Virus record (IMG/VR): IMGVR_UViG_3300020312_000122
Coordinates: 1 to 31,300 of that record
DNA: 31,300 nt
Origin: a virus
Strand: one strand, 5' to 3'
Shown: in pieces, positions 1 through 19,400 of the stretch
Numbering within the stretch: position 1 is the stretch's first letter
Layout: each line of letters starts with the position of its first letter
Made by a program: the position numbers and the translations under genes
The notes under the pieces: model-generated
The model's database searches: none
Seen by the model: the letters and a program-made list of their open reading frames with translations, nothing else
What the model was told of the DNA's origin: nothing

Positions 1-3000
1 CTGTTAGTATCTCTGAACTATCATCTATTAAGATTGTTGGTGGATCCATTACTATTACTGGATTCTCAGACAGTGATGAACTCGGTGGTGCTTTCGCTTC
101 TGACTCCTTACTACCTACACAGGCTGCTGTTAAGGATTACATTACTAACAAACTTGGTCCTTATCTAAACCAGCCATTCTCAACTAACGCTGTTCCATCT
201 GCTCTTGTACAGTTAACTACCTCTGGTAAGATTAACATTGAACAGATTCCTGCGTTACGTCCATTCAATATTACCTCTGTAGCATCTACCGCAGAAAGAC
301 TTGCTATCGAAGACGCAAGTGCTGGTGACATTGCTATTGAGACAACATCAACTACATTCGACTTCGCTCCTTCTGCTGTTGATACAGTTGGTGAGTACAT
401 TAATATTCCTGCTCACGGATTAGCAGCTGGTGATGCTCTAACATACTTCCAAGGTACCTCTAACGTTGGTAACTTGGCTGATGGTGCTACTTACTATACC
501 ATCGTACACTCTGTAGGTGCTAACACCACAGACTACATCAAACTTGCTACATCTAAGACAGATGCTCTTGCTGGTACTGCTAGAGACTTGGGACCTGGAC
601 AAGGTTCTGGTACTCATAAGTTACGTACTGAAGGTGCTGCTATATCCTACATTCTTGAGAATGATTTGGATACAATGTACGCAGCATTCACTCCAGATGC
701 TACTGTACAGTACACTCCTTCTAACCTAGTAATTGGTTCTGCTAGTGGTGCTCAAGGTGTTATCGTCAGTTACGATGAAGGTGTCGTCAGAGACATCCTA
801 ATTGATGAAGCTGGTGCTGGATACGCAAGTGCTCCAGGTATTACAATTACTGCTCCTGGTGGCGGTGGTACACAGGCAACTGCTACATGTACCATTACTA
901 ATGGACAGGTCAGTACGATCACTATTACCAATCCAGGTAGTAAGTACTTCACACAACCCACTGTAACCTTTACAGCACCTCCTGTAGGTGGTACACAGGC
1001 TACTGCTCAGGGTGGTATTGCTAGAATTGAAGCTAGATTAGAAATTGAAATTGCTAACAACATCAAGTTATCCGATGTTGACTTCATGCAGGAAGAGACC
1101 AATACAACGGTCACAACAGGTACATACGTACATGACACATACGATATCACAGTATCAGAGACCAATCATGGATTCTCACAGGGTGATATTGTTTACTTGA
1201 ATTTCACATCTGGATCTTCACCTTCTGGTTTCTACTCTATTACTCCTGTTAATGCTAATGAGTATACAGTAACCGCACAGATTTCTCTACTAACATCTGG
1301 TAACTACGAGCGTAAGAAGATTATTGATGTTGTTAGAACAGTTAATACCTCTGCTAAGGATGCGTCTAACTGGACTCAGTTATCATCTACCAACATTGAT
1401 GCTTCTAACATCGTTGCTGGTGTTATTGACCCAGAGCGTTTAGCATCTACAGGTACTGCTAACTCATACACATTCTTACGTGGTGATAGTTCTTACCAGT
1501 ATGCTATTCAGTCAGTTAAGTTCTCAACTGATGACTGTATGGTTGCTGAGTCAAGTCTATCTGACACATCATACATTGAGAAGGTTGAAATAACCAATGC
1601 TGGTTCTGGATACTCTAATGGTACATATCAGAACATCCCAATGTTGGGTGGTAACGTACCTATCTCTGATGCTGGTGTAGCACGTGCTACTTATACCGTT
1701 GCTGACGTTACTACTGGTGGTATTATTGATACCGTAAGTAACCTCAACCAGACTCCTGGATCATATACAGCAAGTCAAACATTTGATGTAGCTCCTTCCA
1801 CTACTAACGGTGCTGGTTTAGGTGCTTCTATCAGATTCACATCTGATGGTGTTGGTACACTTAGTGTTGATCTTATACTACAAGGTGGTTCTGGATACAG
1901 CAGTGGTGATACATTAACCTTCGACGGTCCTCTATTCGGTGGTACCGTACAGCAACCAGTTGAACTTACAGTATCAACATTAACGTCTTCACAAGCATTC
2001 GGTGTCATAACCAGTGTATCTGTGGTGACTCCAGGTACTGGCTACAATGGTGACTTTGTACTTACTGTTCCTAACGAACTTGGTACTCCATCAGTAGCAG
2101 CAACTCTTAATGCTAAGAAGGGTGTACTTCCACGTTACTTTGGTAACGCTTCTATTGACCTTAAGAAGGCAAACAAACTTACTCCAACTACTCTTCAGGC
2201 TGGTGGTTCAGTCTTCGGTAACTACGGTATCGCTAAGTTCCGTAAGAACGTTGCTGAACAGGCACTAGGTGACCAGACAGAAGGTGGTTTCGTTCTTACA
2301 GTTAATGGTGAGGTCTCTATTGACCAAGGTGCTGGTTCTAAACTGAACGCAGACAAACTAGACGGTAACGAAGGTGCGTTCTATCAGAATGCTTCCAACC
2401 TTGTTGAAGGTGTCATTGATCCACAACGTCTAGCAAACACCACTTATAACATCTCCATATCTGGTACAGCAGACTTCTCTAACGTACTATTCGCAGAGAC
2501 AACTGCTCCATCTTCTGCTAATGCTAACCTTGTATCCGCTGCTAACGTTGGTGGTCAGTTAGCTCTTAGAAGTAACAGTGTTAACGGTATTCCTACTGAT
2601 GCTGGTGGAACTAGAAATGGTGTTCTAACATTCAGAAGATCTGCTACTGGTAACTCTGTTGCTCAGTTAGCATTCTCCGCTACAGATAACTTATACCTAC
2701 GTGGTAACAGTGACACTGGTACTGTTTATGGTAACTGGGCTAAGATCTGGACTTCTGAGAATGATGGTCCTCCCGACCTCAACGAACCTCGTCGTGGTAC
2801 ACTCCCTGGTCCTAATGCTGACTTCCTTGATAATCAGCAGGGCTTATGGTATCAGCAAGGCTATAACATTCATGACCAAAGAACAGTTGGTGTTCTAGGC
2901 GATCCCGCACTACCAACACTTCTAGGTCGTAACAAGTTTGTCGCTGATAACTTCTATGTTGTATCTTCTGGTGAGAAATATCAGCTTTACATACCTAACT

Positions 3001-4775: not shown

Positions 4776-5528
4776 ATGAGTCGATTATACGTAAATAACC
4801 TGAGATCATACTCAGGTTCAACTATTACTATTCCATCAACAACAGCGTTGTCGTTGGGTGGTAAGAAGATTGATGAGAATTCTGTTCTACCAAGTGCTTC
4901 AGGTCAAACTAATAAAGCGGTAGGTAGTGACGGAGAATCAATTATATACGATACATACGGTGCTACATCAATACAAGCTTTTGGAAGTTCTGGTAGTTAT
5001 ACTAAAGGAACTGGTGTCAACACTGTTATGGTGAGACTGGTTGCTGCTGGAGGTGGTGGATCAGGACACGGTGAGTGTGGTGGAGCTGGTGGATTCTGTG
5101 AACGTATAGTTGATGTTAGTGGTGTTTCCTCAGTCTCAGTTGTTATTGGTGTAGGTGGAACTGGTACATACTACTCAGGTAGATGTGGTCAGGGAACTGC
5201 TTCATCATTCGGTTCATTCTGTACTGCTACAGGTGGTGATGGTGCTAACCAAACATATCAGCACGCTGGTGGTTTAGGTGGAGTTGGAACTGGTGGAGAT
5301 GTGAACATGTATGGGGGCGGTGGATCTGCTCACGGAAGATATAATGGTGCTGGTGGGTATTCATTCTTTGGTGGATGTGCTGCTAGAGGTCACCCTCGTG
5401 GTGGAGACTATTCTCGTAACCACCAAACACGTTCTGCTCCTGGTTCGGGAAGTGCTAATGCTTGGCATAGATCTTATCTGGGACCACAAGGTATGAGTGG
5501 AATGGTCGTTGTCTGGGAGTTTAAATAA
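4776..5528 (+). CDS. Glycine-rich tail-fibre tip adhesin-like protein, copy 1
   Basis: This is a 250-residue protein and the first of three tandem paralogues. The N-terminal 35 residues (YVNNLRSYSGSTITIPS...LSLGG) form a short beta module like those that attach small cyanophage fibre proteins. A linker of about 60 residues follows, then a glycine-rich region from about residue 90 to the end with runs such as AAGGGGSGH, GGAGGF, GTYYSG, GGDVNMYGGGGSAH and the closing GMSGMVVVWEFK. Polyglycine stretches broken by aromatic and His residues recall the receptor-binding motifs of T2/S16-type gp38 adhesins and the Gly-rich domain family. It starts at ATG 4776, 6 nt after the fibre stop. It is probably a receptor-binding or tip component; that role is inferred from composition and position, not from a confirmed homologue. 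Confidence 0.8.
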   Translation: MSRLYVNNLRSYSGSTITIPSTTALSLGGKKIDENSVLPSASGQTNKAVGSDGESIIYDTYGATSIQAFGSSGSYTKGTGVNTVMVRLVAAGGGGSGHGECGGAGGFCERIVDVSGVSSVSVVIGVGGTGTYYSGRCGQGTASSFGSFCTATGGDGANQTYQHAGGLGGVGTGGDVNMYGGGGSAHGRYNGAGGYSFFGGCAARGHPRGGDYSRNHQTRSAPGSGSANAWHRSYLGPQGMSGMVVVWEFK

Positions 5529-6290
5529 ATGAGTTTACTTAAAGTTAATACATTAGTACCCCAATCAGGGTCGAATGTAACTATCCAGTCAGGATATACA
5601 CTTAGACTAGGTAGCAAAAACCTAGACTCTTCTAGTGTTATGCCATCTCCTAGTGGTAATAATGGTAGGATCCTTGTAAGTAATGGATCAGCTCGTAACT
5701 GGGAAGATCATGGTGCTGTATCTATGCAGGTATGGACATCAAATGGAACATGGTCAAGACCGACAGGAGTTAAAAGAATTTTAGTTAGAATCTGTGGAGC
5801 TGGTGGAGCAGGTTCTGGAGTAGGAGAAGCTGGTGGTGCTGGTGGATACTCCGAAGAGATTATTGATGTTACTGGTGTATCATCTATATCTGTCACAGTA
5901 GGACAGCCTGGATCATGGGGTGGTACATACTACTCTGGTGGTGCTGCCAATGGTGGATCAACATCATTTGGTAACTATTTGTCTGCTGGTGGTGGAAATG
6001 GTGCTAACCGTAATTACCAGCACTGTGGAGGACTTCCTGGGGGTGGCTCAGGTGGTCAATTAAACATCTATGGTGGTGGTGGATCAGGTCATGAATATTG
6101 GTCTGGTATGCCTGGTGGTGGATCCTTCTTTGGTGGTGCTGGTGCTACTGGTCATCCACGTGGAGGTCACTACGCTTATAACTATCAATACAGGGCTGCT
6201 AAGGGCAGCGGTGGTTCTCCTGGATACCACACATCTCGTAGAGGTGCTAGGGGAATGGCAGGTGTCGTATGTGTCTGGAATTTTAGGTAA
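5529..6290 (+). CDS. Glycine-rich tail-fibre tip adhesin-like protein, copy 2
   Basis: This 253-residue paralogue of the preceding gene begins on the base directly after its stop codon. The layout is the same: an N-terminal beta module (LKVNTLVPQSGSNVTIQSG), a linker with the motif NWEDHGAVSMQVW, and a glycine-rich C-terminal half (GAGGAGSG, GGAGGYSEEIIDVTGVSSI, GTYYSGG, YQHCGGLPGGGSGG, YGGGGSGHEYW, closing GMAGVVCVWNFR). The framework strands are alike among the three copies, but the residues between the glycines differ, as expected for surface loops under receptor-driven diversification. It is probably a tip adhesin or an alternative receptor-binding subunit. Whether the three copies form one heteromer or are alternatives cannot be read from the sequence. 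Confidence 0.8.
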   Translation: MSLLKVNTLVPQSGSNVTIQSGYTLRLGSKNLDSSSVMPSPSGNNGRILVSNGSARNWEDHGAVSMQVWTSNGTWSRPTGVKRILVRICGAGGAGSGVGEAGGAGGYSEEIIDVTGVSSISVTVGQPGSWGGTYYSGGAANGGSTSFGNYLSAGGGNGANRNYQHCGGLPGGGSGGQLNIYGGGGSGHEYWSGMPGGGSFFGGAGATGHPRGGHYAYNYQYRAAKGSGGSPGYHTSRRGARGMAGVVCVWNFR

Positions 6291-6292
6291 CT

Positions 6293-7048
6293 ATGTCAAA
6301 CGTTTACTGTAATGAACTCGACGCAGCGTCGGGAAGTACTATACTAATACCCTCTGGATATAACTTATCCTTGGGTGGAACTACCATGAATGCTAGTTCA
6401 ATACCTCCTTCCCCTGAGGGTAAGGCAGGTCAATTTTTGATTAGCGATGGTTCAGAAGCTACGTTTAAGCACATAGGTCCAGCAAGTATACAGACATTCT
6501 ATAGTAGTGGTTATTGGTATAGACCAGATGGTATAAACAGAATCATCGTTCGCGTCGTAGGTGGCGGTGGCGGTGGATCAGGTCATGCCGAGTCAGGTGG
6601 TGCTGGAGGATATTGCGAAGAAGTTATTGACGTACGTGGTATATCAAGTGTATACTGTACAGTCGGTTCAGGTTCTGGAAGTGGTACATACTACTCTGGA
6701 AATGGTGGCGGGGGTAACACGTCTTCCTTTGGAAACTACTGCTCTGCTTATGGTGGACTAGGTGCTAACCAAGTTTATCAGCATTGTGGTGGACTGGGTG
6801 GCGAGTCCAGCGGTGGAAATCTAAATATCATTGGTGGTGGAGGCATTGGTCACATGAACTACTTTGGTCATGGTGGCGGTGGTTTCTTTGGTAATGGTAC
6901 AATGAGTGCTCACGGTAACTGGGCACAGGGCACACGAACTTCACAGTTAAGAGCTGCTAGAGGTGGTGGTGGGACATCTGGATATCAGCGTTCTTATCAA
7001 GGAGCGAATGGTATGGCAGGTGCGGTTATCGTTATGGAGTTTCGCTAA
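6293..7048 (+). CDS. Glycine-rich tail-fibre tip adhesin-like protein, copy 3
   Basis: This is the third tandem paralogue, 251 residues, starting 2 nt after copy 2. It has the N-terminal module (VYCNELDAASGSTILIPSG), the linker motif HIGPASIQTFYSSGYWYRPDG, and the glycine-rich adhesin-like half (VGGGGGGSGHAESGGAGGY, GTYYSG, YQHCGGLGGESSGGNLNII, GGGGIGHMNYFGHGGGGFF, closing GMAGAVIVMEFR). The elements TYYSG, YQH and GG-x-N-x-x-GGGG are shared by all three copies. The stop codon TAA is also part of the CTAAATA late-promoter element of the next transcription unit, so this gene marks the end of the fibre/adhesin block. Confidence 0.8.
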   Translation: MSNVYCNELDAASGSTILIPSGYNLSLGGTTMNASSIPPSPEGKAGQFLISDGSEATFKHIGPASIQTFYSSGYWYRPDGINRIIVRVVGGGGGGSGHAESGGAGGYCEEVIDVRGISSVYCTVGSGSGSGTYYSGNGGGGNTSSFGNYCSAYGGLGANQVYQHCGGLGGESSGGNLNIIGGGGIGHMNYFGHGGGGFFGNGTMSAHGNWAQGTRTSQLRAARGGGGTSGYQRSYQGANGMAGAVIVMEFR

Positions 7049-7074: not shown

Positions 7075-7590
7075 ATGGCTAAAAGTTGTCTAGTAGACTA
7101 CCGAGGCTTTATCACGGACGTTGTTGATGTTGGTGATGAGTTTGAGGTTTATCAGGGTGATGATGCAAAGTGCAAGTGGGTAACTTGCGATGATGATAAC
7201 GTCACAAACCTATGGGTACTCTATAATGGAGAGTTCTTTAATAGCGAAGATCGCTTAGAACGTAACCAACAAATGAAAAGAAAGGTTGAGTACGGCCAAA
7301 TCGAGGACCAGCTCGATATGATGTATTGGGACCAAGTTAATGGTACGACCACATGGAAGGATCATGTAACAGCAGTTAAGGCAAGTATTGTCAATCAAGC
7401 CGCTGCTGATGCTGATGCTAATTTCTATGCTGGCAAGAAAGAATTTGAGATGGGTACAGAAGAGACTCCAGCATGGAATAGTCTTCCTGCTGACAAGCGT
7501 GCTAAGAGGACTAACTTCAAGAACGCTACAGTCTATGAACCTGGATGGGGTCCAGACCCTGTTACGGGACTACCTAAATACATCGGATAG
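7075..7590 (+). CDS. Small tail-associated protein of unknown function
   Basis: This is a 171-residue acidic protein that I do not recognise by name. Residues 70-86 (KVEYGQIEDQLDMMYWD) match a pattern often found in small phage proteins beside tail fibres (R/K-x-x-YxxIxDQLDxxYWD). It is followed by a helical segment (TWKDHVTAVKASIV) and a Pro/Gly-rich C-terminus (YEPGWGPDPVTGLPKYIG). The N-terminal 50 residues look like a small beta domain. It starts at ATG 7075, with AAAGAA just upstream and a late promoter element 23 nt away. It links the adhesin block to the halogenase cassette and could be a virion component or a fibre-assembly factor. Confidence 0.7.
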   Translation: MAKSCLVDYRGFITDVVDVGDEFEVYQGDDAKCKWVTCDDDNVTNLWVLYNGEFFNSEDRLERNQQMKRKVEYGQIEDQLDMMYWDQVNGTTTWKDHVTAVKASIVNQAAADADANFYAGKKEFEMGTEETPAWNSLPADKRAKRTNFKNATVYEPGWGPDPVTGLPKYIG

Positions 7591-7607
7591 GACAATAAGA
7601 CTTTGTT

Positions 7608-9173
7608 ATGAAAATTGATAAAATTTGTATCGTAGGCGGTGGCACTGCTGGTTGGATGTCAGCCGCTACATTGATTAAATCATTTCCGAATAAAGAAATA
7701 ACACTCATAGAATCTGAAGACATCCCGACGATTGGGGTAGGAGAATCCACTACCCAATTCTTTAGGGACTGGACTAAGGAGATGAATATCTCCGACTCTT
7801 GGATGGATGAGTGTGAAGCAACATATAAGTATAGTGTAAAATTTGAGAACTTCAGTGAGTATGGTGACTTCCACTACCCATTCTTTGATGGTGGCCCACC
7901 TGCTAATTCAAACTGTGATATTTTAGAATGGTTCTTTCACTTACAGGCATCTGGTGGTAAACCAGATATGTCCTTTGCTGAGTGGATGGTTCCATATTGG
8001 AAAGTAATAGAAGATAATAAGGTAGTAGTAGATCAGTTTCAAAGTTTCGATTACTCGAAGAATTCAGGGTATCACTTTGATGCTTCTAAGTTTGCTCAGT
8101 GGTTGAAGAGAGAGTTCTGTGTCCCTCGTGGAGTAAAGCATGTTACTGATACTATCAACAACTTCGAGAAAGATTTCTCAGGAAATATAACCACTCTCTT
8201 TGGTGAGAAAGGTGAGTATCAAGCCGATCTCTATATTGATTGTACAGGATTTAGATCTCTTCTATTAGGAGAGTATATGAATGTTGAGTGGGAATCATTC
8301 CCATGGTTAATTAATGATCGTGCTTGGGCAGCGAGAGTCAAGTACAAGGATGAAAGATCTGAGATGCTAAACCATACCAGGTGTGTAGCACTTGATAATG
8401 GTTGGGTTTGGCATGTCCCATTAACAACTAGAATGGGAGTAGGATATAACTTTAGTAGTCAGTTCGTATCACCTGAGGTGGCCAAGTTAGAGTTCATGGA
8501 GTTCTTAGGAGACCATGAATTGATTGGGGAACCTCGTTTAATAGAATGGAAAAACGGAGTAGCAAAACAAATATGGTCTAAGAATGTTGTAGGTCTTGGT
8601 TTATCTGGTGGGTTCATTGAACCATTAGAATCTAATGGATTACTCAGTGTACATAACTTCGCTGTGTTCTTAGCAGATGCTTTGTCAATGCATGATGGTA
8701 AAGTCAATACATTGATGAGAGATCAGTTCAACCATAGATGTCGTAAACACTTTATTTCTTTTGCTCACTTTGTGGCTAATCATTATATGATGACCACTAG
8801 GGATGATACCCCATACTGGAAATATATCAGTGAGGATATAGATTATCTTTCTGACATGGCAAGGGATGAATATAGAGCATACCCATTTGATAAGTTCCCA
8901 TTAAGGATGGATCAAATATCTGAATGGGCATGGCAGAATCTGGCTGGTAATGCTTACATTGCTGCTGGTCATAGACATACTCCTGCTACTTCATGGACAT
9001 GTGATTATATGGAGAAACGTAAGAACATTGATTTGGCTTCCTTCGCTAAGTTAGAATCAGGATACCAACTCAGTGATGAGATAATAGCAGACATTAATAA
9101 ATTCCCTAACCCGTGTGATTTTTATTATAAAGATGTCGCTGGAATAGACATGCCTCATTATATACATGGTTAG
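7608..9173 (+). CDS. Flavin-dependent halogenase (tryptophan halogenase family), copy 1
   Basis: This 521-residue protein has the length and landmarks of the PrnA/RebH family, which uses reduced FAD, O2 and halide to make hypohalous acid that a lysine relays to an electron-rich substrate. Visible are the FAD-binding GGGTAGWM at 10-17, GVGEST at 43-48, the catalytic lysine K74 in ATYKYSVKF (aligned with PrnA K79), the halogenase signature WVWHVP at 266-271 (WxWxIP with Ile to Val), and GGFIEPLESNG at 334-344, whose E341 aligns with PrnA E346. No flavin reductase gene is present, so reduced flavin would have to come from the host or from elsewhere in the phage. The cyanophage Syn10 enzyme VirX1 is a characterised relative with iodinating activity. 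The substrate here is unknown. The next gene overlaps by 8 nt. Confidence 0.92.
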   Translation: MKIDKICIVGGGTAGWMSAATLIKSFPNKEITLIESEDIPTIGVGESTTQFFRDWTKEMNISDSWMDECEATYKYSVKFENFSEYGDFHYPFFDGGPPANSNCDILEWFFHLQASGGKPDMSFAEWMVPYWKVIEDNKVVVDQFQSFDYSKNSGYHFDASKFAQWLKREFCVPRGVKHVTDTINNFEKDFSGNITTLFGEKGEYQADLYIDCTGFRSLLLGEYMNVEWESFPWLINDRAWAARVKYKDERSEMLNHTRCVALDNGWVWHVPLTTRMGVGYNFSSQFVSPEVAKLEFMEFLGDHELIGEPRLIEWKNGVAKQIWSKNVVGLGLSGGFIEPLESNGLLSVHNFAVFLADALSMHDGKVNTLMRDQFNHRCRKHFISFAHFVANHYMMTTRDDTPYWKYISEDIDYLSDMARDEYRAYPFDKFPLRMDQISEWAWQNLAGNAYIAAGHRHTPATSWTCDYMEKRKNIDLASFAKLESGYQLSDEIIADINKFPNPCDFYYKDVAGIDMPHYIHG

Positions 9174-10734
9174 AATTTGTATAGTAGGTGGTGGCTCAGC
9201 AGGATGGATGACTGCTGCTGCTTTTCGTAAGATATTTCCAGATTATAAAATTGATTTAATTGAGAGTCAGACTCTACCAAAGATGAGTGTTGGTGAGTCT
9301 ACCCTCGGACATTTTAATAGGTATCTTGATCTTATTGAAGTACAAGATCATGAGTGGATGCCAGCTTGTAATGCCACGTATAAAGTATCCATTCAGTTCA
9401 GTAATTGGAAAGGTACTGCTGATGTATTTCAGTATCCTTTTGGTGATACAGATTATACTGATGGTGGGCTGGTAGATTGGTATCATATCCATAACTTATA
9501 TCCAGATGAGTTCCCAGATAATACCTTTGCTGAATTTTATAATCCAATATCATACCTGGCTCAGACCAATAGAGTATCAGACCCTAAAGAATATATTCGT
9601 AACTACAATCCCAAATGGAACAGAGCATATCACTTTGATTCAGATAAGTTTGGTGCTTGGTTAAGGAACAATAGATGTCAAGAAGTCGGTCATTACTATG
9701 ATGACATAGTAAAGTGTACCTATGACACTAAGTGTAATATAGACAAACTAATAGGTGCTGGTGGTACAGAATATGAAGCAGATTATTATATCGATTGTAC
9801 AGGGTTTGCTTCTAAACTCTTAGGTGGAATGATGGGAACTCCATGGATTGATTTTCCTTTCCTACCTAATGACAGTGCTATAGCAGCGAGGATTCCATAC
9901 GAGAATCGTCGTGAACAGATGATTAATACTACAGATGGACATGCTATGCCTGAGGGGTGGGTATGGACTATACCCCTATGGAATCGTATAGGTAAGGGTT
10001 ATGTATATTCTAGTCAACAGCATAGAGATGATCCTGAGACTATCTTTAGAGAACACTTAGGTACTCGTGGTAAACCCTATGAGGGTGATGTCCAGCATAT
10101 TAAATTTATGCATGGTAGAAGACAGAATGCCTGGGTAAGAAATGTTATTGGTATTGGATTATCACAGGGGTTCTTGGAACCTTTGGAATCTACTGGACTG
10201 TTCACTACACATGAGAATATTATAAGATTAGTTGATGTCTTCCAACGTAGAGATGGGTTCGTATCACAACTTGATGTAGATGGATACAACCACACAGTTA
10301 ACTTTGAGTTGGAAGCAATGAAGGAGTTTATTGAGATACATTATTATCTCTCTCCTCGATGTGATACTGCCTACTGGAGACAGTTCCATGAAAATGCTCC
10401 TCTCTCTGAAGATGAGTTACAAGATAAGATTGTCAGATCTCCACGTTTATACCAGGAATTAATTCATTGCTGGAATATCTCAAATGCCCCATCAGGACTG
10501 GGAGGTACGACATACATTGCTGCTGGTTTAGGGTACCATCCTGCCACACCAGCGACTACCAAATACGTTCTAAATAGAGATGAGTATTCTATTAGTGAAG
10601 CTAAAGAATCTATAGGTAGGTACAGACATTACAAGAAAACTGTGCTAGAATACCTTGAGAAGCAACCAGTACATTATGATTATCTCTTGAAGAACATTTA
10701 TGGTAATGATGAATCCTTTGAATTTACTTCGTAA
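9166..10734 (+). CDS. Flavin-dependent halogenase (tryptophan halogenase family), copy 2
   Basis: This is a second, clearly diverged 522-residue halogenase directly after the first and overlapping it by 8 nt. Key features are intact: GGGSAGWM at 8-15, SVGEST at 41-46, the relay lysine K73 in ATYKVSIQF, a canonical WVWTIP at 265-270, and QGFLEPLESTG at 334-344 with E341. Compared with copy 1, it differs in the residues after the relay lysine (VSIQF against YSVKF) and in the 85-150 region that lines the substrate pocket in this family, so the two enzymes probably act on different positions or substrates. The pair looks like an old duplication or two separate acquisitions, not a recent copy. Its 3' end overlaps the next gene by about 35 nt. 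Confidence 0.92.
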   Translation: MVRICIVGGGSAGWMTAAAFRKIFPDYKIDLIESQTLPKMSVGESTLGHFNRYLDLIEVQDHEWMPACNATYKVSIQFSNWKGTADVFQYPFGDTDYTDGGLVDWYHIHNLYPDEFPDNTFAEFYNPISYLAQTNRVSDPKEYIRNYNPKWNRAYHFDSDKFGAWLRNNRCQEVGHYYDDIVKCTYDTKCNIDKLIGAGGTEYEADYYIDCTGFASKLLGGMMGTPWIDFPFLPNDSAIAARIPYENRREQMINTTDGHAMPEGWVWTIPLWNRIGKGYVYSSQQHRDDPETIFREHLGTRGKPYEGDVQHIKFMHGRRQNAWVRNVIGIGLSQGFLEPLESTGLFTTHENIIRLVDVFQRRDGFVSQLDVDGYNHTVNFELEAMKEFIEIHYYLSPRCDTAYWRQFHENAPLSEDELQDKIVRSPRLYQELIHCWNISNAPSGLGGTTYIAAGLGYHPATPATTKYVLNRDEYSISEAKESIGRYRHYKKTVLEYLEKQPVHYDYLLKNIYGNDESFEFTS

Positions 10735-11518
10735 GAAGAAACCAAGAGCAAGATTTTTTTCCTTAGTACATGGAGTACATACACTCCACCCAATAACTAA
10801 AGCTGCTGATCTAGACAGAGAGTGGCGAGCAGAAGAGAGAAAAGATTTTCAAGAACGATTAGGTATTTGCCCTCTCAGTAAGATGATTGAGGGTATCCAT
10901 AATCATCCCAATTCTATTGGGAGATGTCCTGCTATCAATCAGATTATGAGGACTGGATATATTGTCCATGCTCCTGCTGATTTTAAAGTACATACTAACG
11001 GGGATGGTCATACCATTCTATTCACACAGACAGGTTTCAGTCCACCTGGATCTGACTATGTGGTGCTTCATGATGAGAACGTATCTAAATGGTTACTAGA
11101 TAGTACGAAAGACAATACTATCGATCAGGTAGTAAAAGTCAATACTACATGGCGTGTACAGGCAGACGATGACATCGTATTCTTACAACAAAAAGTACCA
11201 TTCGTTAATGAAACTCGCTTCTCAGCAATACCTGGTATTCTCGATCCACGTTCTGCTTATGAGGTCAATGTCCAATTATGGTGGCACGTCCTAGAAGGAG
11301 ATGAATGTATTAAAGCAGGGACACCCCTGTGTATGTACGTACCTATCTCTAGAAAACTATTAGAAGAATTAGAAGTTGATATAGATACCGCTACTCCAAA
11401 CGATTATAGGTTGGAGGAAGAGTTTATGTTTACAGCATATAACCAATTCCCTGAGAACGTTACTGTTACTCAGAGACAGTTGAAGACTAATAAAATATTG
11501 AGGAAGTTTTGGAAATGA
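10700..11518 (+). CDS. Unknown protein of the halogenase/oxygenase cassette
   Basis: This is a 272-residue soluble protein whose family I cannot name with certainty. Its motifs are CPAINQIMRTGYIVHAPADF (76-95), a TWRVQ...FLQQKVPF segment (150-168), AIPGILDPRSAYEVNVQLWW (176-195) and IKAGTPLCMYVPISRK (204-219). This arrangement (Cys-Pro, then a strand with W-x-V/I, a P-G-I-hydrophobic-D strand, and a closing GTPL-x-x-hydrophobic-x-P) resembles a beta-rich family of unknown function that I associate with marine phages and halogenase neighbourhoods. No HxD metal triad is evident. The start could be ATG 10700, 10706 or 10709, all inside the end of halogenase 2. The stop overlaps the next start as ATGA. 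It may be a substrate-handling partner of the tailoring enzymes; this is a guess from context. Confidence 0.75.
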   Translation: MVMMNPLNLLRKKKPRARFFSLVHGVHTLHPITKAADLDREWRAEERKDFQERLGICPLSKMIEGIHNHPNSIGRCPAINQIMRTGYIVHAPADFKVHTNGDGHTILFTQTGFSPPGSDYVVLHDENVSKWLLDSTKDNTIDQVVKVNTTWRVQADDDIVFLQQKVPFVNETRFSAIPGILDPRSAYEVNVQLWWHVLEGDECIKAGTPLCMYVPISRKLLEELEVDIDTATPNDYRLEEEFMFTAYNQFPENVTVTQRQLKTNKILRKFWK

Positions 11519-12123
11519 CTCATCATGCTTTGTTCGCAGTCCCAGTAGAGAAGGGTCGCATCATACCAAGTGAATATGATGAGGCACATACTGAGACTTG
11601 TTTAAATAAAATGTTCTTAGATAAAACTCTTGGTGAGTTTGAAGGTGAGACTGGTTTATCTACTGGACCACAGGTATTAAACTTACATGAGTTTGAAGAG
11701 TTACAATGGTTATTCAAACCATTAACTCTAGCAGTTAGGGACTACTGGGTAAACGTCCTGGGTTATAGAAAGATGATGTATGTTGATGCTCATGATGCTT
11801 GGGCTAACAAACATTTCGCAGGTGATAGTACTGTGGCTCACAACCATAGAGATGGTTGGTGGGGTCAGTGTCAGGTCTCTGGTGTATTCTATTTCAGGAA
11901 ACCTAGAGGGTCATCTAATATACACTTTATAAACCCTAACGATTACTTATTGCGTATGACACCGTATGCGTGTATGATAGGTACTAACGATCATTCAGTT
12001 GAGTGTCAGGCAGATGAGTTTGAGTATCTCTTATTCCCATCATGGTTGAAGCATAGGGTACCACCAAGCAAAGTTCAAGGACCACGTATTTGTATATCAT
12101 TTAATTATTATGGACATGATTAA
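11515..12123 (+). CDS. 2OG-Fe(II) oxygenase, TIGR02466-like
   Basis: Starting from ATG 11515 (an upstream in-frame TTG at 11509 is less likely), the protein has 202 residues. It shows the pattern of the phage-abundant 2OG-Fe(II) oxygenase group: VAHNHRDGWW (H109 and H111 as likely iron ligands), then VSGVFYFRKP (121-130), then LLFPSWLKHRVPP (172-184) with distal His H180, and a closing GPRICISFN with R191 as likely 2-oxoglutarate anchor. Enzymes of this fold couple decarboxylation of 2OG to hydroxylation or similar oxidation, and several act on protein side chains. The first base of its ATGA start overlaps the stop of the preceding gene, indicating translational coupling. The substrate is unknown. 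Confidence 0.85.
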   Translation: MTHHALFAVPVEKGRIIPSEYDEAHTETCLNKMFLDKTLGEFEGETGLSTGPQVLNLHEFEELQWLFKPLTLAVRDYWVNVLGYRKMMYVDAHDAWANKHFAGDSTVAHNHRDGWWGQCQVSGVFYFRKPRGSSNIHFINPNDYLLRMTPYACMIGTNDHSVECQADEFEYLLFPSWLKHRVPPSKVQGPRICISFNYYGHD

Positions 12124-12928
12124 CGGAAATTTTATGAAGGTATTACCTATACCTCGACACATGTATGATGGTTCTAAGATCATTAAACCAGCAGAAGAGT
12201 GGACGTTTAAAAACTTCAGTACACACTGGGTGGTAGATAATATATTTGTTGAAGGTGGTATAGATTTACTTAAAGATATATGTGAGTGTTATCCTATAGA
12301 GGATATGAACAATCAAGAGACTGCGTTCGATCCCAATCCCTTCATTGTTCATCATATACCTTACTGGTTATTCAATCCTCTTGCTACAGCAGTGAGAGAC
12401 TTTGTTGTCATAAATTATTTTAAGAGACCCAAAGAGGAGTCTTGTATTAATGATGAAAGATTATCTGAGTGGGCTAATATCTTCATAAGAAGTGAGTCCA
12501 ACCCAGTTAGATTTAGTGCTATGCCTCATGTTGACTATCCATATGATGAGGGTTTCATTTCAAACTTATGGTTATCAGAACATGAAAAAGGAGAAGTCGG
12601 AACAACACTCTATGAGTATAAAGGACAGATTGATGAGGGAAGGTACGATTTCCAAATCGATCCAAATCACCACCTCTATAAAAAGTGGCATAGTTTGTAC
12701 GGAAGCGGTAAAGAAAGAGCACCCTGGAGTAACTTTACAGACAAGGAAGCTTTCGAGTGGGGATTCAGAAAAGTAGGATTTGCTGAAGGTAAGCATGGTA
12801 CTATGACAATATATAATGCTAATACTCCACACTCACCATACATTGCTGACACTGTGGACTTTAGATGGACACATTGCTTTGGGTTTAAATATACCCCACT
12901 GAACTTACACTACGCACCTGAGTTATGA
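12110..12928 (+). CDS. Putative 2OG-Fe(II) oxygenase-like protein with HxD motif
   Basis: This 272-residue protein carries MPHVDYPYDEGFISNLWLS at 138-156, where H140 and D142 form an HxD metal motif, followed by GTTLYEYKG (164-172), then ANTPHSPYI with H241 and an Arg at 252. The order HxD, GT-x-hydrophobic-Y strand, distal His, Arg fits a double-stranded beta-helix oxygenase. The PHVDYP string recurs in the oxygenase at 13763. The spacing between HxD and the distal His (about 100 residues) is larger than usual, with a charged insertion at 173-225. The N-terminal region (30-120) matches nothing I know. ATG 12110 overlaps the previous gene by 14 nt; ATG 12134, preceded by GGA at a suitable distance, is an equally good start and would give 264 residues. 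Confidence 0.7.
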   Translation: MDMINGNFMKVLPIPRHMYDGSKIIKPAEEWTFKNFSTHWVVDNIFVEGGIDLLKDICECYPIEDMNNQETAFDPNPFIVHHIPYWLFNPLATAVRDFVVINYFKRPKEESCINDERLSEWANIFIRSESNPVRFSAMPHVDYPYDEGFISNLWLSEHEKGEVGTTLYEYKGQIDEGRYDFQIDPNHHLYKKWHSLYGSGKERAPWSNFTDKEAFEWGFRKVGFAEGKHGTMTIYNANTPHSPYIADTVDFRWTHCFGFKYTPLNLHYAPEL

Positions 12929-13206
12929 TTTTTTGGATTGGATTTACCCTCATGTTTTTTAATGAGGGGTTTGTTATGATGCGACATGTATCACCCTTCT
13001 TTGCTAGACTTAGAGATAAGGTTATGAAGAAGCTAGGTGATAAGTTGTGGTGGAGACTACATGGCACATTAGATTGGTTATGGATATCATTAGTAACTTG
13101 TGGACTAATAGTTAACTCTCATAGAGTTTTACATATAATGGTATTAGCAACTTTCTGGACACTCTCCTGGTTGATATTTTATTTACCAAGATGGATTAAA
13201 AGATGA
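12925..13206 (+). CDS. Small membrane protein
   Basis: This is a 93-residue, strongly hydrophobic and basic protein. Hydrophobic stretches at about 1-18 (MIFWIGFTLMFFNEGFV), 48-65 (TLDWLWISLVTCGLIV) and 69-88 (LHIMVLATFWTLSWLIFYL) suggest two or three membrane segments, with a basic amphipathic loop between the first and second (ARLRDKVMKKLGDKLWWR). No family is recognised. It overlaps both neighbours by 4 nt (ATGA), so it belongs to the oxygenase operon. It could localise some cassette enzymes to the membrane or act independently on the host envelope; the sequence does not decide. Confidence 0.65.
   Translation: MIFWIGFTLMFFNEGFVMMRHVSPFFARLRDKVMKKLGDKLWWRLHGTLDWLWISLVTCGLIVNSHRVLHIMVLATFWTLSWLIFYLPRWIKR
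12947..12968 (+). repeat. Inverted repeat at the start of the small membrane protein gene
   Basis: CCCTCAT and ATGAGGG form a 7-bp perfect stem around an 8-nt T-rich loop, 20 nt into the coding region. It is relatively GC-rich for this genome. It could slow translation or moderate readthrough in the operon, but no T tract follows it and chance cannot be excluded. Confidence 0.3.
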
Positions 13207-13766
13207 TACTGGATGAGATATTCCCAACACCCATATGGATATTTGATTTAGACTTTGATCTAAATGATATGGCATACTATTGTCATAGAGTACAGCATGA
13301 GGATAAAGGTAGAGAAGTATCTAACGTAGGTGGTTGGCAGTCAAATGATATACATGAATTTGATGGAACACCACTAAGACCCTTCGTAGATTGGTGTGAG
13401 AAAGAGATAGTACATATGTCAAAGGATCTAGGTTGTGGTGGAGACACTCCAATAATGGATAATATGTGGATCAATATCAATCCTAAAGGTAGTTTCAATC
13501 AACCCCACGTACACCCTGTGTCAAGGTTCTCTGGTGTATTCTATATCTCTGCCCCTGAGAACTCAGGTGATATATGTTTTACTAGAGATGGTAATGACTA
13601 TGCTCTGGGATCTATCTGTCCAAACAATACTAGATACAGTAGTGCTCAGTGGATGTATGCTCCTAAGGAGAATCGTGCTATAATATTTCCAGCATGGGTA
13701 AAACACCAAGTTCTACCAAATGAATCTGATGAACTTAGAATATCATTGGCATTTAATTTACGATGA
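13203..13766 (+). CDS. 2OG-Fe(II) oxygenase, TIGR02466-like
   Basis: This 187-residue protein has the full pattern of this oxygenase group. It begins with the typical LDEIFPTPIWIFDL (3-16), followed by MWININPKGSFNQPHVHPVS (88-107) with H102 and H104 as probable iron ligands. Next come FSGVFYISAPENSGDICF (109-126), then AIIFPAWVKHQVLPN (159-173) with distal His H168, and ELRISLAFN with R179 for 2OG binding. It is a compact catalytic domain with no extra module. It overlaps the membrane-protein gene by 4 nt and the next oxygenase by 4 nt. A role in hydroxylating protein or small-molecule substrates is plausible; the substrate is unknown. Confidence 0.88.
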   Translation: MILDEIFPTPIWIFDLDFDLNDMAYYCHRVQHEDKGREVSNVGGWQSNDIHEFDGTPLRPFVDWCEKEIVHMSKDLGCGGDTPIMDNMWININPKGSFNQPHVHPVSRFSGVFYISAPENSGDICFTRDGNDYALGSICPNNTRYSSAQWMYAPKENRAIIFPAWVKHQVLPNESDELRISLAFNLR

Positions 13767-14377
13767 AAGAATTTAAAAACTTCCTACCACAATCACTAGC
13801 AGATGAACTCCATGATATTATGACTGGAGATCACTTTCCATGGTATTGGATTGATGATGTAACCACTGCTCCTGAGGATAGGACAGCAGTACCAGAATAT
13901 TATACTAACCAACCTGGTATGCATCATACCCCATATATTGATGGTAAGGTGAGTGAGTGGTTTGGTCACTATAATTTTCTCTATCATTATATCGTTGACG
14001 CATTAGAATTAGATCAACGTCAATGGTATCTTGCTAGAATAAGATGTGGATTAAACTTCCCCACTCTTAAGTCAGAACACATGGCACATAATAATCCACA
14101 CGTGGATTATCCAGAGACTGAGAGAGGTGAACATTTTACATGTCTATATTATGTCAATGAATCAGACGGTCCAACAGTAGTCTTTAATGAAAAGAAAGAG
14201 TCTGATAAGTATACCATTGCTTATAAGTGTCATCCAGAAAAGAATAAACTGTTTGCTTTTGATGGAAAGCATTACCATGCTAGTTCATGTCCAAAGGAAC
14301 ATGATGTTAGAATAGCAATAACTATTAACCTTGCTCAGAGAATGCCTAATGTGGACTCAGTTATTAGAGGCGCGTGA
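13763..14377 (+). CDS. 2OG-Fe(II) oxygenase, prolyl-hydroxylase-like
   Basis: This 204-residue protein shows HMAHNNPHVDYPETERGEHF (106-125), where H113 and D115 make the HxD motif. It is followed by TCLYYVNESDGPTVVFNE (126-143), then KLFAFDGKHYHASSCPKE with H172 (or H170) as the distal ligand, and DVRIAITINL with R183 to bind 2OG. The YVNESDGPTVVF strand pair is typical of the prolyl-4-hydroxylase-like branch, a different subgroup from the TIGR02466-like genes at 11515 and 13203. Its N-terminus starts with a short helical KNFLPQSLADELHDIM, as is common in these enzymes. It overlaps the previous gene by 4 nt and the following JmjC-like gene by 29 nt. Confidence 0.87.
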   Translation: MKEFKNFLPQSLADELHDIMTGDHFPWYWIDDVTTAPEDRTAVPEYYTNQPGMHHTPYIDGKVSEWFGHYNFLYHYIVDALELDQRQWYLARIRCGLNFPTLKSEHMAHNNPHVDYPETERGEHFTCLYYVNESDGPTVVFNEKKESDKYTIAYKCHPEKNKLFAFDGKHYHASSCPKEHDVRIAITINLAQRMPNVDSVIRGA

Positions 14378-15074
14378 CCTCATCCACCATGATGGTGCGG
14401 TACATATAAAAGGGTTCTTACATGAACCAGAGAAATATTTGAATTGGAGATATGTAGAGGATGCTCTGGCTCGTGGTGATATGGGTTGGGAGTTAATAAA
14501 CTCTGATGGTACTAAGAAAGATATACCAATGTATAAACCTTTCTGGTCACCTATACCAGTGTGTGAGAAAGAAGTTGTATGGCAACACTTAATCAATGGT
14601 ATGGGTTTTGTTATAGTTGGATATAGTGTATCTAATGATCGTACAAGACAGTTATGTTCTTCTATTGAACAGGAGTTTGATGTCAACTGTTGTATCCATG
14701 TATATGGTGGTAGAGGTTTAGGTGGATCATTTAACACACATTATGATCACTTCCCTAATATTATAATACAGGCCAAAGGTACTACACCATGGAAAGTCTA
14801 TAAGAATAAAGCGACTGCCATGTATCATTCTCGTAATGAGTCACCACATCCTGATGAGGAAATGGTAGTAGACTGGGAAGGAGATATGAACCCAGGAGAT
14901 CTCCTCTATATACCTGATAGAGCTTTTCATAGAGCATCACCTAATGGTGAAAGATTATCCATGAGCATACCATGTATGCCTACCATTTATAATAGTGACC
15001 ATTATGACAGACGTAGCTACACGTTCCCCAATACTGAAAGTATGGAAAGAAGCACTTCCTCTACCAGTAGTTGA
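14349..15074 (+). CDS. JmjC/cupin_4-type 2OG oxygenase
   Basis: From ATG 14349 the protein has 241 residues; an in-frame TTG at 14331 is a weaker start. The central GSFNTHYDHFPNIIIQAKGT (126-145) has the HxD pair H131/D133 and the conserved Gln of QxxGxxxW (Q141...W148). MNPGDLLYIPDRAFHRASPN (180-199) supplies the distal His H194 after the GDxLYxP turn that is diagnostic for cupin_4/JmjC ribosomal-oxygenase-like proteins such as YcfD/RoxA. Relatives hydroxylate Arg or His side chains of proteins, so a protein substrate is credible here too. The N-terminal 60 residues (HHDGAVHIKGFLHEPEKYLNW) resemble the usual entry into the fold. It lacks the long C-terminal winged-helix part of cellular homologues. 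Confidence 0.83.
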   Translation: MWTQLLEARDLIHHDGAVHIKGFLHEPEKYLNWRYVEDALARGDMGWELINSDGTKKDIPMYKPFWSPIPVCEKEVVWQHLINGMGFVIVGYSVSNDRTRQLCSSIEQEFDVNCCIHVYGGRGLGGSFNTHYDHFPNIIIQAKGTTPWKVYKNKATAMYHSRNESPHPDEEMVVDWEGDMNPGDLLYIPDRAFHRASPNGERLSMSIPCMPTIYNSDHYDRRSYTFPNTESMERSTSSTSS

Positions 15075-15621
15075 GTTCGCGTATACTGAATTTAGATTAA
15101 TGAGAGATGCTTTACTTGCCATGGGCAGTAAAGAGGGTTATAATGATCCTACAGTGCCAGGATGTTTTTCTTGGTATTCACCGTTATGCTTTGAAGCATT
15201 GAGTTTATATGTACAACCTAAAGTAGAGAAAATGTTAGGTACGGATCTCCTTCCTACATACTCTTATGGTCGCATATATACTGAAGGCAGTGAGTTAGAA
15301 AAGCACACTGATCGCAGATCATCTCAGTTAGCAGTTAACGTTTCTCTTGCTAGAGACATTCGATGGGATCTCCATTTTGAATGGAAAGGGCAAGACTTGA
15401 TGGTTGACTTAAAGCCTGGAGATGTGGTAATATACTCTGGAGATACTATTCCTCATTGGAGGGACAAGTACACAGGTAAGGAACATGTAAATGCTTTCCT
15501 ACAATTTGTCTATGCTGATGGTCCTTATGCTGATCTTAAGTATGACACTCGCCCATATCTTGCTACACCTTATCAGATGACGGCACAACATATACAAGAC
15601 GAAGTAAAAAATTATGTCTGA
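15004..15621 (+). CDS. 2OG-Fe(II) oxygenase
   Basis: Starting from ATG 15004 (a GTG lies in frame at 14995) the protein has 205 residues. The core reads LPTYSYGRIYTEGSELEKHT (83-102) with H101/D103 as the HxD motif, SQLAVNVSLA (107-116), DLKPGDVVIYSGDTIPHWRD (135-154) with distal His H151, and KEHVNAFLQFVYADGPYAD at the end of the fold. PGDxxxYxGxxxPHWR is typical of small phage and bacterial 2OG oxygenases. The start overlaps the JmjC-like gene by 71 nt, the longest overlap in the cassette; ATG 15100 is an alternative that would remove it but would truncate the first helix. It is the last recognisable enzyme of the cassette. Confidence 0.85.
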   Translation: MTDVATRSPILKVWKEALPLPVVEFAYTEFRLMRDALLAMGSKEGYNDPTVPGCFSWYSPLCFEALSLYVQPKVEKMLGTDLLPTYSYGRIYTEGSELEKHTDRRSSQLAVNVSLARDIRWDLHFEWKGQDLMVDLKPGDVVIYSGDTIPHWRDKYTGKEHVNAFLQFVYADGPYADLKYDTRPYLATPYQMTAQHIQDEVKNYV

Positions 15622-15892
15622 TGAAACTACCACCACTCCTGAAACTCAGGAATGGACTTTTGATCGGGTATGGGATGACTTTGTTAGTCAACTCATAACA
15701 GCCAGAGAAGAGGTTAAAGAAAAAGAAGACGAGCTTGAAAAGAATTCCAGTCTTATGACACGGATTGATTTGAGTGAAGTTAATGACGCACGCAATAAAG
15801 TGATGCGTTTAGAGGGTGCTTGTGAAGCACTAGATATTGTTCGTACCAAAGTTATTGGTGTGGAATCACGTATTAAAAGAGAGGACTCGTAA
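15614..15892 (+). CDS. Hypothetical coiled-coil protein
   Basis: This 92-residue protein is rich in Glu, Lys and Arg, with heptad-like helices at about 20-47 (DDFVSQLITAREEVKEKEDE) and 55-90 (LSEVNDARNKVMRLEGACEA). No catalytic motif or membrane segment is seen. ATG 15614 overlaps the oxygenase stop by 8 nt, and the stop shares its last base with the next start (TAATG). It looks like a small oligomeric helper or structural peptide; the function is unknown. Confidence 0.7.
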   Translation: MSDETTTTPETQEWTFDRVWDDFVSQLITAREEVKEKEDELEKNSSLMTRIDLSEVNDARNKVMRLEGACEALDIVRTKVIGVESRIKREDS

Positions 15893-16110
15893 TGACTATC
15901 GAAGAAATGATTACCGACTTTACTGAACAGCAGTCTAAAGTCAGAGCAGAAATAGCAGACATCAAAGAAGCACTTAAGGCAAGGGAAGAACAGAACCTTC
16001 GCTTAGCTGGAGCAATAGAAGGACTTCGTTTGGCAAGTCAAGATAACACTTCAGCAGATGAATCTGCTACAAGAGAAGCAGAAGGAAAACCTGCTGTGAA
16101 AGTTAAGTAA
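15892..16110 (+). CDS. Hypothetical small coiled-coil protein
   Basis: This 72-residue protein has one long charged helix (residues 3-48, MITDFTEQQSKVRAEIADIK onward) and a flexible Ser/Thr/Glu/Lys tail. It is similar in design to the preceding gene and shares one base with it, so the two could pair. It is the last plus-strand gene of the cassette. Its end overlaps the convergent minus-strand gene by 8 nt. Confidence 0.65.
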   Translation: MTIEEMITDFTEQQSKVRAEIADIKEALKAREEQNLRLAGAIEGLRLASQDNTSADESATREAEGKPAVKVK

Positions 16111-16402: not shown

Positions 16403-16410
16403 TATAAATA
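16403..16410 (+). promoter_or_regulatory. T4-type late promoter TATAAATA
   Basis: This is a perfect match to the T4 late promoter element, 29 nt before ATG 16440 in the short intergenic space after the minus-strand gene. With transcription starting a few bases downstream, the leader would be about 20-25 nt. An AGAGGA at 16415-16420 is too far (about 19 nt) to be an ordinary Shine-Dalgarno site. This promoter should drive 16440 and probably gp13-gp16. Confidence 0.8.
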
Positions 16411-16439: not shown

Positions 16440-19400
16440 ATGGCAACCCTATTAGTAAAGGTCGCGGATTCTACAACTCTGTCTGGTGCTCAAACAGCAA
16501 TAATCAGTCAGCATAGCTATTTAGAAGTTGTACGTTCCTTCAGAACCTTTAAGACTATTGAATTTAAGGCTCCCAGTGAGGATCAGGATTCAATCGATTC
16601 AATCAGAAAATTACCATACGTAGTTGGTGCTACTTATGATAAGGAGTTTTCTATTGCTCCTGTAGAAGAGAAAGTAGAAACTGTAGAGTTTACGAATGAT
16701 GTGATTGAGGAGGCAACTGCGTCTTCATCACCTGATGCTGATAATAAGAATACAAGAATTTTAACTGGATCTGGTGGTGGTACCATTTATGTAAAGGTTG
16801 CTAACTATAGTGGTAATCTCCGTTTCCAGTTCTCAAGTACCCAAGGTGGTGTCTACAGTAGGATATCAACCTACCAAGGTTTCACACAAGGTGGTACATA
16901 TACATTTGACCAAGCAGATTCTTCAAACGCTGGTCACAGAATATTATTCTCATTAACTCCTGATGGTACCCATAAGGATGGTACAGATTATACTACTGGT
17001 GTAACTACTGCTGGTACTCCAGGATCTTCTGGTGCTTATACACGTATTACTATTGGTGCTTCAACTCCATCTGTGTTATACTGGTACAATGCTAGTAACT
17101 CAGATTATGGTGCTTGGGATGATAGTCCCCTAAGATATGGTTGTCTTGCTGTACATGATTTCTGGCATCTTGATAGAATTACTAAACAAAATAGAAGCTA
17201 CTTAAATGGACAATACTATACTACGGAAGAGGCTGATGGTGTTGACCTGTACGTTCTTGATACTGGTGTTAGAGGAGCGTCGCGCCCGACAGGAAACAAC
17301 GTAGGATTACATCCAGAGTTATTTGATGTAACTAATAACGCAGACTTAAATGGTTTGTCTGAACAACAGGCATATCGTGTCTACGAAGTCGCAGGATACA
17401 ACTCAGGTTATACGGTAAACGGAAATGCTAACTCGAACGAAGATGATAACGGTCACGGGACTGAGTGTGCTGTGCTTGCTGGTGGTATTAAATCAGGTGT
17501 TGCGAGAAAGATCAAAGTCTACGGTGTAAAATGTTTTAGTTCTGCTGGTAGTGGATCACTCTCAGGTATTATGAATGCCTATCAGGCTGTTATAAACCAT
17601 AATGATTCAGGACATGCGAACTACAAAGGTAACACTAGACCAGCAGTTATTAATGCTAGTTTTGGTCCAACGACTCCTAGTGGAGCATTCCCATATATCG
17701 AATTAAACGAATCGGGAACTGACGCAGGGTTTGACATCGAACTATATGACGAGACAGAGAAAGAAGTAGTAGATGCTAATATAGTTCTCGTTAGATCTGC
17801 TGGTAATGGTTTCAAAGACTCTGGTGATAACTTCGCTGGACCTTTACAGACAAGATTTAAAGCTGGTGCTAGATCATCAGGTTATCAGGATGGTGACGTA
17901 AACATCTTTGATGTGAACATACCATCTATATCTGTAGGTGCTACAGATTATAATGACAGATGGGCAGACTTCTCTAACTATGGATCAGGTTGTACAACTA
18001 CTGCTCCAGGTCAACACATAACATGTCCTGCTTATGACTGGACTACCAATACAACATACACTTCAGTAAGTAACTATGTAAACATTGGTGGTACATCATT
18101 CTCTGGACCGATTGTTGCTGGTGTTGTATGCCAATTCATTGGTGCTAATGATTATCTCCTTACTACCAATACTCTACCTACCCTATGTAAGAACTGGGTT
18201 AGACAGAGTGGTGGTGCTGGTAAATACAATGCTATCAGTAGTGAAGCATACCCTATTAATAGTGCTAAGGAAATTAAACTACCAGACAACCCATTTGAAG
18301 TTTCTAATGGTAGTAATCAAGTAAAGGTTAGTTTTAACTCTGCTGACTCATCTGAGTTTCTAAACAGAATTGGTAAGAAGATTCAGTTAAGGACTCCTTC
18401 TATGCCTACTGTTGGTGGTATAAACATTGGAGATGCTACTAGACAATGGCATGGAATCATAGCACAGGATCCTTCTAATAATAATATAACAATTCAATTA
18501 ACCAACTCTGGTACATCAGATGCTACTGGTGGTGGTTCTGGTAACTACATGGCAATCATATCTGATACCCATGAGGTAACAGATGGTCCTACATTTGCTA
18601 ACGTAGCTCTGTATGCTGAACTTGATAGTGAAGAGGCAGGTCACACAGGTAGAACTGTTGATCAACTTCCAGTTGATACAGGTGTTGACTTTAACTTCCA
18701 AGACACTGGTTCACTCCTTAGTAAAGTAAGAGGTTTATTTACCAAGTATATTAATAAGAGTATAGCTTGGCATAGATCACCAGGTGGATTACATTCTACT
18801 GGTGGTCCTCAGACTGAGAGTGGTAGAGTGTGGTGGAAAACCACAGGAGCTACCGCTGGTACTTACTATGCTCAGTGTACTGCCCATACAAACATGTATG
18901 GTACTATTAACCTCAGTGGTAGTGGTGGATCTGCTATTAGGAAATGGAATGTTACAGATGCTGGAAATGGTGCTTATAATTTCGCAGAGCAGAATGTAGC
19001 ATCAACATCATTGATGATCAATGTAACCAATACTGGTAGTAGTGACTACACTATATCTGGTACTGATAGAGATACTACTCATAGTTCTGCTGCTGATCCT
19101 GGAATAAAAGTATGGATTGGAGATACAGTAACCTTTGCTGTTAACGCAACTGGTCACCCCTTCTATCTTAAGACACAGGCTGGTACTGGTACAGGAAATC
19201 AGATATCATCAGGAGTATCAGGTCAAGGTTCTGAGGTAGGTAACGTTGTATGGAATACAACAGGAGCTACCGCTGGTACTTACTATTACCAATGTGAATT
19301 CCATGGTGGTATGGTTGGATCTATTACTCTTGCTCAACCAGGAGAATCAGGTGATGACATAACAATTAATTCTACTATTGGAGATGTCTTAGTATTTGAT

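Follow-up and report, generated by a model that had tools for sequence, protein, structure and literature searches.

Linkage of a halogenase and oxygenase gene cassette to tail-tip adhesins suggests chemical modification of the host-binding tip in marine cyanophages

Genes of the fibre, adhesin and enzyme locus

The window analysed here is a 31.3-kb virus record (IMG/VR IMGVR_UViG_3300020312_000122, positions 1 to 31,300), and our subject is a cassette within it (positions 7075–16110) encoding two flavin-dependent halogenases (FDHs) and a set of 2-oxoglutarate (2OG)-Fe(II)/JmjC-type oxygenases behind tail fibre and adhesin genes. The record belongs to a T4-like phage: Pfam detected homologues of gp14 (neck), gp15 (sheath stabiliser) and, weakly, gp16 (small terminase), and the window gp13 aligns with annotated gp13 at 40–43%. 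There was no DNA-level match of the window among the phage records searched. The host is very probably a cyanobacterium, since two relatives, on contigs of 189 and 200 kb, carry a gene for a photosystem reaction-centre protein. The tail fibre gene is followed by three Gly-rich adhesins, protein T, the two FDHs, and then protein J, six oxygenases and small proteins:

474–4769, + strand: tail fibre protein of 1431 amino acids, platform for the adhesins (PHROG phrog_5342, tail fiber protein, E 3e-230)
4670–4677, + strand: T4-type late promoter element TATAAATA, exact match, 106 bp before adhesin 1 and the nearest upstream of the cassette
4776–5528, + strand: Gly-rich adhesin 1, candidate substrate (PHROG tail fiber families, E 1e-41; PF21722 just below cut-off; alignments of homologues)
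5529–6290, + strand: Gly-rich adhesin 2, candidate substrate (PF21722 above cut-off; phrog_863, E 5e-52)
6293–7048, + strand: Gly-rich adhesin 3, candidate substrate, with Tyr134, His164, His187 and His207 (AlphaFold and fold match; residue conservation in 193 homologues)
7075–7590, + strand: protein T, between adhesins and FDH (phrog_1787, E 4e-22)
7608–9173, + strand: FDH 1, catalytic residues intact (PF04820; VirX1 6qgm, E 1.6e-92)
9166–10734, + strand: FDH 2, the closest to VirX1 (PF04820; VirX1 6qgm, E 4.2e-130)
10700–11518, + strand: protein J (phrog_7084), dUTPase-like beta fold (AlphaFold confidence score, pLDDT, 85; weak Foldseek dUTPase match, E 5.5e-4, template modelling score TMq 0.29)
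11509–12123, + strand: putative 2OG-Fe(II) oxygenase, PF13759/TIGR02466, metal motif ambiguous (Pfam, NCBIfam)
12110–12928, + strand: 2OG-type oxygenase, invariant HxD...H...R (alignment of 24 homologues)
12925–13206, + strand: small protein (phrog_31495), hydrophobic by eye, rare in related cassettes (3 loci)
13203–13766, + strand: putative 2OG-Fe(II) oxygenase, PF13759/TIGR02466, HxH motif (Pfam, NCBIfam, motif)
13763–14377, + strand: 2OG-type oxygenase, HVD...H...R (profile grouping, motif)
14331–15074, + strand: JmjC_2 (ribosomal-oxygenase-like) putative protein hydroxylase (PF08007, E 1.7e-15)
14995–15621, + strand: 2OG-type oxygenase, HTD...H (H-x-D...H...R/K pattern)
15614–15892, + strand: small conserved cassette protein, phrog_20247 (PHROG, profile search)
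15892–16110, + strand: second small protein, related to 15614 (profile match, E 6e-5)

As the initial annotation had proposed, the cassette forms a single chain behind the fibre and the three adhesins, with genes that overlap (by 4–80 bp from position 7608 onward) or almost touch (26 bp between adhesin and T, 17 bp between T and FDH). The presence of two intact halogenases was borne out as well. Their PF04820 matches reach E-values of 2e-94 and 9e-98, VirX1 (PDB 6qgm) is the best solved-structure match for both, and they carry GxGxxG, a WxWxIP-type motif and the catalytic Lys and Glu of the family. The catalytic Lys, WxWxxP and EPLE positions are kept across 20 phage FDHs, with one Tyr replacing the second Trp. 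Judged from these residues, both window FDHs are catalytically intact.

Regarding the adhesins, PF21722 scores above the cut-off in one and just below it in two, and the three proteins also fall into tail-fibre families of PHROG. The AlphaFold model of adhesin 3 (pLDDT 79) finds its best PDB fold match in the fibre of cyanophage Pam3 (7ypx; Foldseek E 4.9e-7, TM 0.48), while the adhesin profile gave no match to PDB by sequence. The three proteins have the marks of Gly-rich tail-fibre adhesins of the gp38/Pam3 type, namely a Gly-rich distal domain, a fold match to solved fibre tips and a position behind the fibre gene. Protein T is also found behind fibre or carbohydrate-binding genes in phages without an adjacent FDH, and its role is probably in fibre or adhesin assembly.

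Five of the oxygenases had been described as bearing clear 2OG or JmjC motifs, and the 12110 product as bearing HxD. This stands for the 12110, 13763, 14331 and 14995 products, all with an H-x-D/E...H facial triad, but is too strong for 13203 and 11509, because the former carries H-x-H and the motif of the latter is ambiguous; both are assigned as oxygenases by family (Pfam) only. In the 12110 product H140, D142, H241 and R252 are invariant among 24 homologues, and a PDB search with its profile gave no useful match. The profile of 13763 matches 13203 at 1.5e-26, placing it with the 2OG set. H137, D139 and H200 are invariant in the alignment of 14331 homologues, and the best PDB match of this JmjC profile is the histidyl hydroxylase NO66 (E 2e-12), a similarity to NO66/MINA53/YcfD that marks the ribosomal oxygenases. 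The PHROG or GenBank names ‘DNA endonuclease V’ (13763), ‘ferrochelatase’ (14995) and ‘minor coat protein’ are probably wrong for these oxygenase families. Protein J was considered as the missing flavin reductase or a further 2OG oxygenase and was rejected, its fold being weakly dUTPase-like. A seventh 2OG-type gene (PF13759; 26757–27374) lies outside the cassette, behind the small terminase gene.

Linkage to the adhesins and late setting

We searched IMG/VR with the adhesin alignment alone, and locus counts refer to the matches listed; seeds were drawn from FDH-linked phages, and the loci are not independent. The search retrieved at least 59 viral loci, at least 47 of them with an FDH. When at least 2.5 kb was available past the last adhesin, an FDH was present in 45 of 48 loci, and the distance from adhesin end to FDH start had a median of 557 bp (73 loci). 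In cellular genomes, the adhesin profile gave at least two distant matches, on contigs that carry no FDH.

Ten isolates have fibre, adhesins, T, FDH and oxygenases in collinear order: Syn10, syn9, S-RIM44, P-TIM40, Sf-FP1, Sf-FR1, S-SZBM1, S-WAM1, P-RSM6 and S-CREM1. The cassette occupies two sites. It lies directly before gp13 in S-RIM44, Sf-FP1 and Sf-FR1, whereas Syn10 (whose block is the same in syn9), P-TIM40, S-SZBM1, S-WAM1, P-RSM6 and S-CREM1 have it in the fibre region, not beside gp13 and in several cases just after gp5. Six loci, some near-identical, have the enzyme block inverted and still touching T (L037, L039, L079, L082, L151 and L156). In the minimal forms, adhesins, T and one FDH remain, with no oxygenase found (L153) or none above threshold (L162), so the FDH looks like the core partner of the adhesins. 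Cassette-adhesin linkage across cyanophage genomes had been put forward as a check on the proposal, and in the loci examined the pairing is near-obligate, at two sites and with cassettes that are inverted but adjacent.

Some further arrangements were observed in these searches. The modules of L139, L153, L155, L157 and L162 consist of adhesin, T and FDH with no or one oxygenase, one of them on a 354-kb contig; four of the five have a protein of about 410 amino acids between T and FDH, with a phrog_1458 match in both that were scanned. Other FDH lineages in IMG/VR (e.g. L036, L055, L072, L088) also have 2OG genes in the neighbourhood and, two to four genes upstream, a Gly-rich open reading frame (ORF). 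Finally, in S-SSM7 (92–116 kb; L267/L258), Gly-rich fibre-tip, carbamoyltransferase, 2OG, FDH and heptose/nucleotide-sugar genes stand together before gp13.

One could argue that fibre regions are insertion hot spots and that the cassette is a hitch-hiker, which would leave the linkage functionally meaningless. At the gp13 site it is indeed an accessory element: the majority of gp13 loci in related phages are without the whole set, and 37 such contigs are without a PF21722 protein. Of eight further complete cyanophage genomes, the four without FDH had no PF21722 protein above the cut-off, and two of the four with FDH had one. Yet a hot spot should gather other cargo, and 539 of 569 cassette ORFs fall in the families of the window cassette, with little else in the chain. 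Besides, inverted cassettes remain adjacent, and the key residues differ in adhesin homologues from five loci that were checked and have no FDH nearby (see below). We regard hitch-hiking as most improbable.

Alternatively, these could be auxiliary metabolic genes whose products act on host metabolites (free Trp or another aromatic compound) and alter host chemistry or yield, for instance, something resembling an antibiotic, with the position beside the adhesins incidental. This is the published view of phage FDHs (PMC10452541, PMC2984593, PMC9964418), and VirX1 halogenates many free aromatics in vitro (PMC8407142). It sits poorly with cassettes that hold almost only these families plus T and that are paired near-obligately with a single adhesin family at either site and in either orientation. 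The claim that there is no biosynthetic core also withstood scrutiny: none was found in the window cassette or its relatives by Pfam, NCBIfam and ORF-family counts, and the locus does not qualify as a secondary-metabolite cluster. We consider a host-metabolite role unlikely.

On the FDH tree, adhesin-linked FDHs are clustered (14 changes, versus 51 in shuffles) and present in several branches. The FDHs of S-B64, S-MbCM6 and P-SSM2 fall in branches without window-type adhesins nearby. In S-PM2 (NC_006820, 121319–122608), the FDH match is interrupted by one in-frame TAA, and this copy may be broken.

The initial annotation had also placed a late promoter element ahead of the cassette. TATAAATA occurs at 4670, and 18 of 55 related loci have it no more than 250 bp ahead of adhesin 1, compared with 0.007–0.010 expected per 250 bp. 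The two exact copies in the window do not exceed chance, so only the positional conservation is informative; the element stands by its position in relatives and not by the window count. Sigma-70-like promoters and terminators inside the cassette were not above shuffles. An exact TATAAATA at 16403 directly precedes a gene for a 1943-amino-acid protein with a subtilase domain (16440–22271), before gp13.

Adhesin residues and a proposed tailoring of the tail tip

Among 193 adhesins, Tyr134, His164 and His187 are conserved at 97–98% and His207 at 88%. Of 211 adhesins from the 79 FDH-linked loci, which are not independent, 208 have both Tyr134 (in GTYYSG) and His164 (in YQHxGG), and every one of these loci has adhesins with the two residues. 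Neither residue is present in the five homologues that were checked and have no FDH nearby (L146, L159, L164, L270 and S-B64, the last with an FDH elsewhere in its genome, not near the adhesin homologue). Linked adhesins are also richer in His (4.5 versus 1.5%) and Tyr (4.9 versus 2.6%) than ten unlinked Gly-rich proteins. As the FDH-free homologues are distant, we take the residues that track the FDH as a strong clue and not as proof.

Comparative sequence evidence gives strong support to a late setting and to a functional connection with the adhesins: the near-obligate pairing, the two sites, the inverted but adjacent cassettes, the conserved promoter position and the FDH-tracking residues. 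The near-constant linkage suggests chemical modification of the phage's own host-binding tip, and late post-translational tailoring of its tail-tip adhesins is, in our judgement, the best explanation and a fairly probable one. The initial annotation had proposed tailoring of structural proteins such as the adhesins; the adhesin link and the late setting were upheld, and the evidence favours the Gly-rich adhesins rather than structural proteins in general.

Linkage to a receptor-binding protein and late timing would fit equally well a cassette that modifies the host receptor or cell surface, for superinfection exclusion or release from debris, and that is tied to the adhesin through the shared receptor. 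On its own, this possibility does not predict that Tyr134 and His164 of the adhesin should track the FDH, and we hold it to be decidedly unlikely. A further proposal is that the cassette makes a small glycan or an amino-acid-derived group decorating the fibre or the cell surface, as Iyer et al. suggested for the halogenase and carbamoyltransferase cluster of P-SSM2/S-SSM6a (PMC7824862). The S-SSM7 neighbourhood keeps this alternative alive because it includes sugar and carbamoyl genes beside Gly-rich fibre-tip genes, FDH and 2OG genes. However, the window cassette and its relatives are without sugar or carbamoyl genes, and the Gly-rich proteins of S-SSM7 did not match the window-type adhesin profile. 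We find such a decoration very unlikely.

Under adhesin tailoring, a single late transcript from the promoter before adhesin 1 would carry the three adhesins, T, the two FDHs and the six oxygenases. Protein T would probably act as an assembly factor, and the host would supply reduced flavin to the FDHs. Either before the tail fibre is assembled or while this is under way, the FDHs would add halogen to aromatic or His side chains of the adhesins, with Tyr134 as the most conserved candidate and His164 as the second. The JmjC enzyme would probably hydroxylate His164, His187 or His207, and the other oxygenases further residues, although the steps might follow another order. Modification of these residues could adjust receptor binding or make it stronger, or could stiffen or cross-link the tip. 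In its most specific form, the proposal is that cyanophages halogenate (perhaps iodinate or brominate, as VirX1's preference suggests) and hydroxylate specific Tyr and His residues of the tail tip, possibly giving a cross-linked or quinone-like group, in an obligatory maturation that would make this a viral protein-halogenation system. We put the chances of this form at about even.

Several observations weigh against adhesin tailoring. VirX1 accepts many small molecules in vitro (PMC8407142), and the FDHs of S-B64, S-MbCM6, P-SSM2, S-PM2 and Syn1 are located far from adhesins. The Tyr134/His164 pattern may be a subfamily marker, given how distant the FDH-free homologues are. The His content of the adhesins shows no correlation with the presence of a JmjC gene, nor their Tyr, Trp or His content with the number of FDHs. 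Adhesin His content rises and Tyr content falls with the number of oxygenases, both trends being confounded by kinship. Finally, the Gly-rich ORFs found next to FDHs of other lineages show no enrichment in Tyr or His.

Virion protein modification by phage-encoded enzymes is already known from mycobacteriophage glycosylation, and halogenation plus hydroxylation of an adhesin would, if true, be a new chemistry within it. No proposal of virion protein halogenation appears in the literature found, which assigns phage FDHs to metabolism or antibiotic chemistry and 2OG oxygenases of these kinds to DNA repair, nitrogen-related functions or metabolism without further assignment. Should the tail-tip adhesin prove to be the substrate, a group of supposed auxiliary metabolic genes would turn out to serve virion assembly, a viral case would be added to protein halogenation, and phage-host recognition in the ocean would have a new chemical layer. 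The prediction names specific residues, Tyr134 and His164, and a virion mass spectrometry experiment has been reported for S-CREM1 (PMC9964418).

Comparison with known systems

VirX1 comes from cyanophage Syn10 (PMC8407142) and belongs to the same enzyme family as the window FDHs; the two FDHs of Syn10 sit in a homologous block of fibre, adhesins, T, FDH and 2OG/JmjC genes. It has been characterised with free aromatics only, and the literature found does not establish a natural substrate for VirX1-type viral halogenases in the phage. The P-SSM2/S-SSM6a cluster, read as a secondary-metabolite or capsule cluster (PMC7824862), likewise combines a phage FDH with 2OG/cupin enzymes. It differs in having carbamoyltransferases, and the P-SSM2 FDH is in another branch and not beside these adhesins.

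Regarding halogenation of peptides, known FDH substrates include peptidyl Trp and peptidyl Tyr bound to a non-ribosomal peptide synthetase, and the vancomycin FDH requires prior hydroxylation of Tyr (PMC12615548). MibH and SrpI, from the biosynthesis of ribosomally synthesised and post-translationally modified peptides, are FDHs like those of the window and modify ribosomally made peptides (PMC12615548). Their substrates are short precursor peptides, whereas a virion protein as FDH substrate is absent from the literature found. QhpG and LodB share an FDH-like fold, oxidise protein Trp (for QhpG, PMC7876137) and show weak NCBIfam similarity to the window FDHs, far below family cut-offs; they hydroxylate and do not halogenate.

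The window adhesins share with gp38-type and Pam3 adhesins a Gly-rich domain that forms the distal receptor-binding tip, as described for Pam3 (PMC9608196) and for gp38 of PP01 (PMC12892980), but no modifying cassette is described for those adhesins in the literature found. In gp38, Tyr residues of the receptor loops matter for infection (PMC12892980). Finally, NO66, MINA53 and YcfD have ribosomal proteins as substrates and longer solved chains (373–489 residues, versus 247 for the 14331 product), yet they are the best profile match of this product, whose homologues keep the invariant HxD...H. The targets of NO66 and MINA53 are His residues within Gly- and His-rich segments of ribosomal proteins, which they hydroxylate (PMC9994133; PMC4556315).

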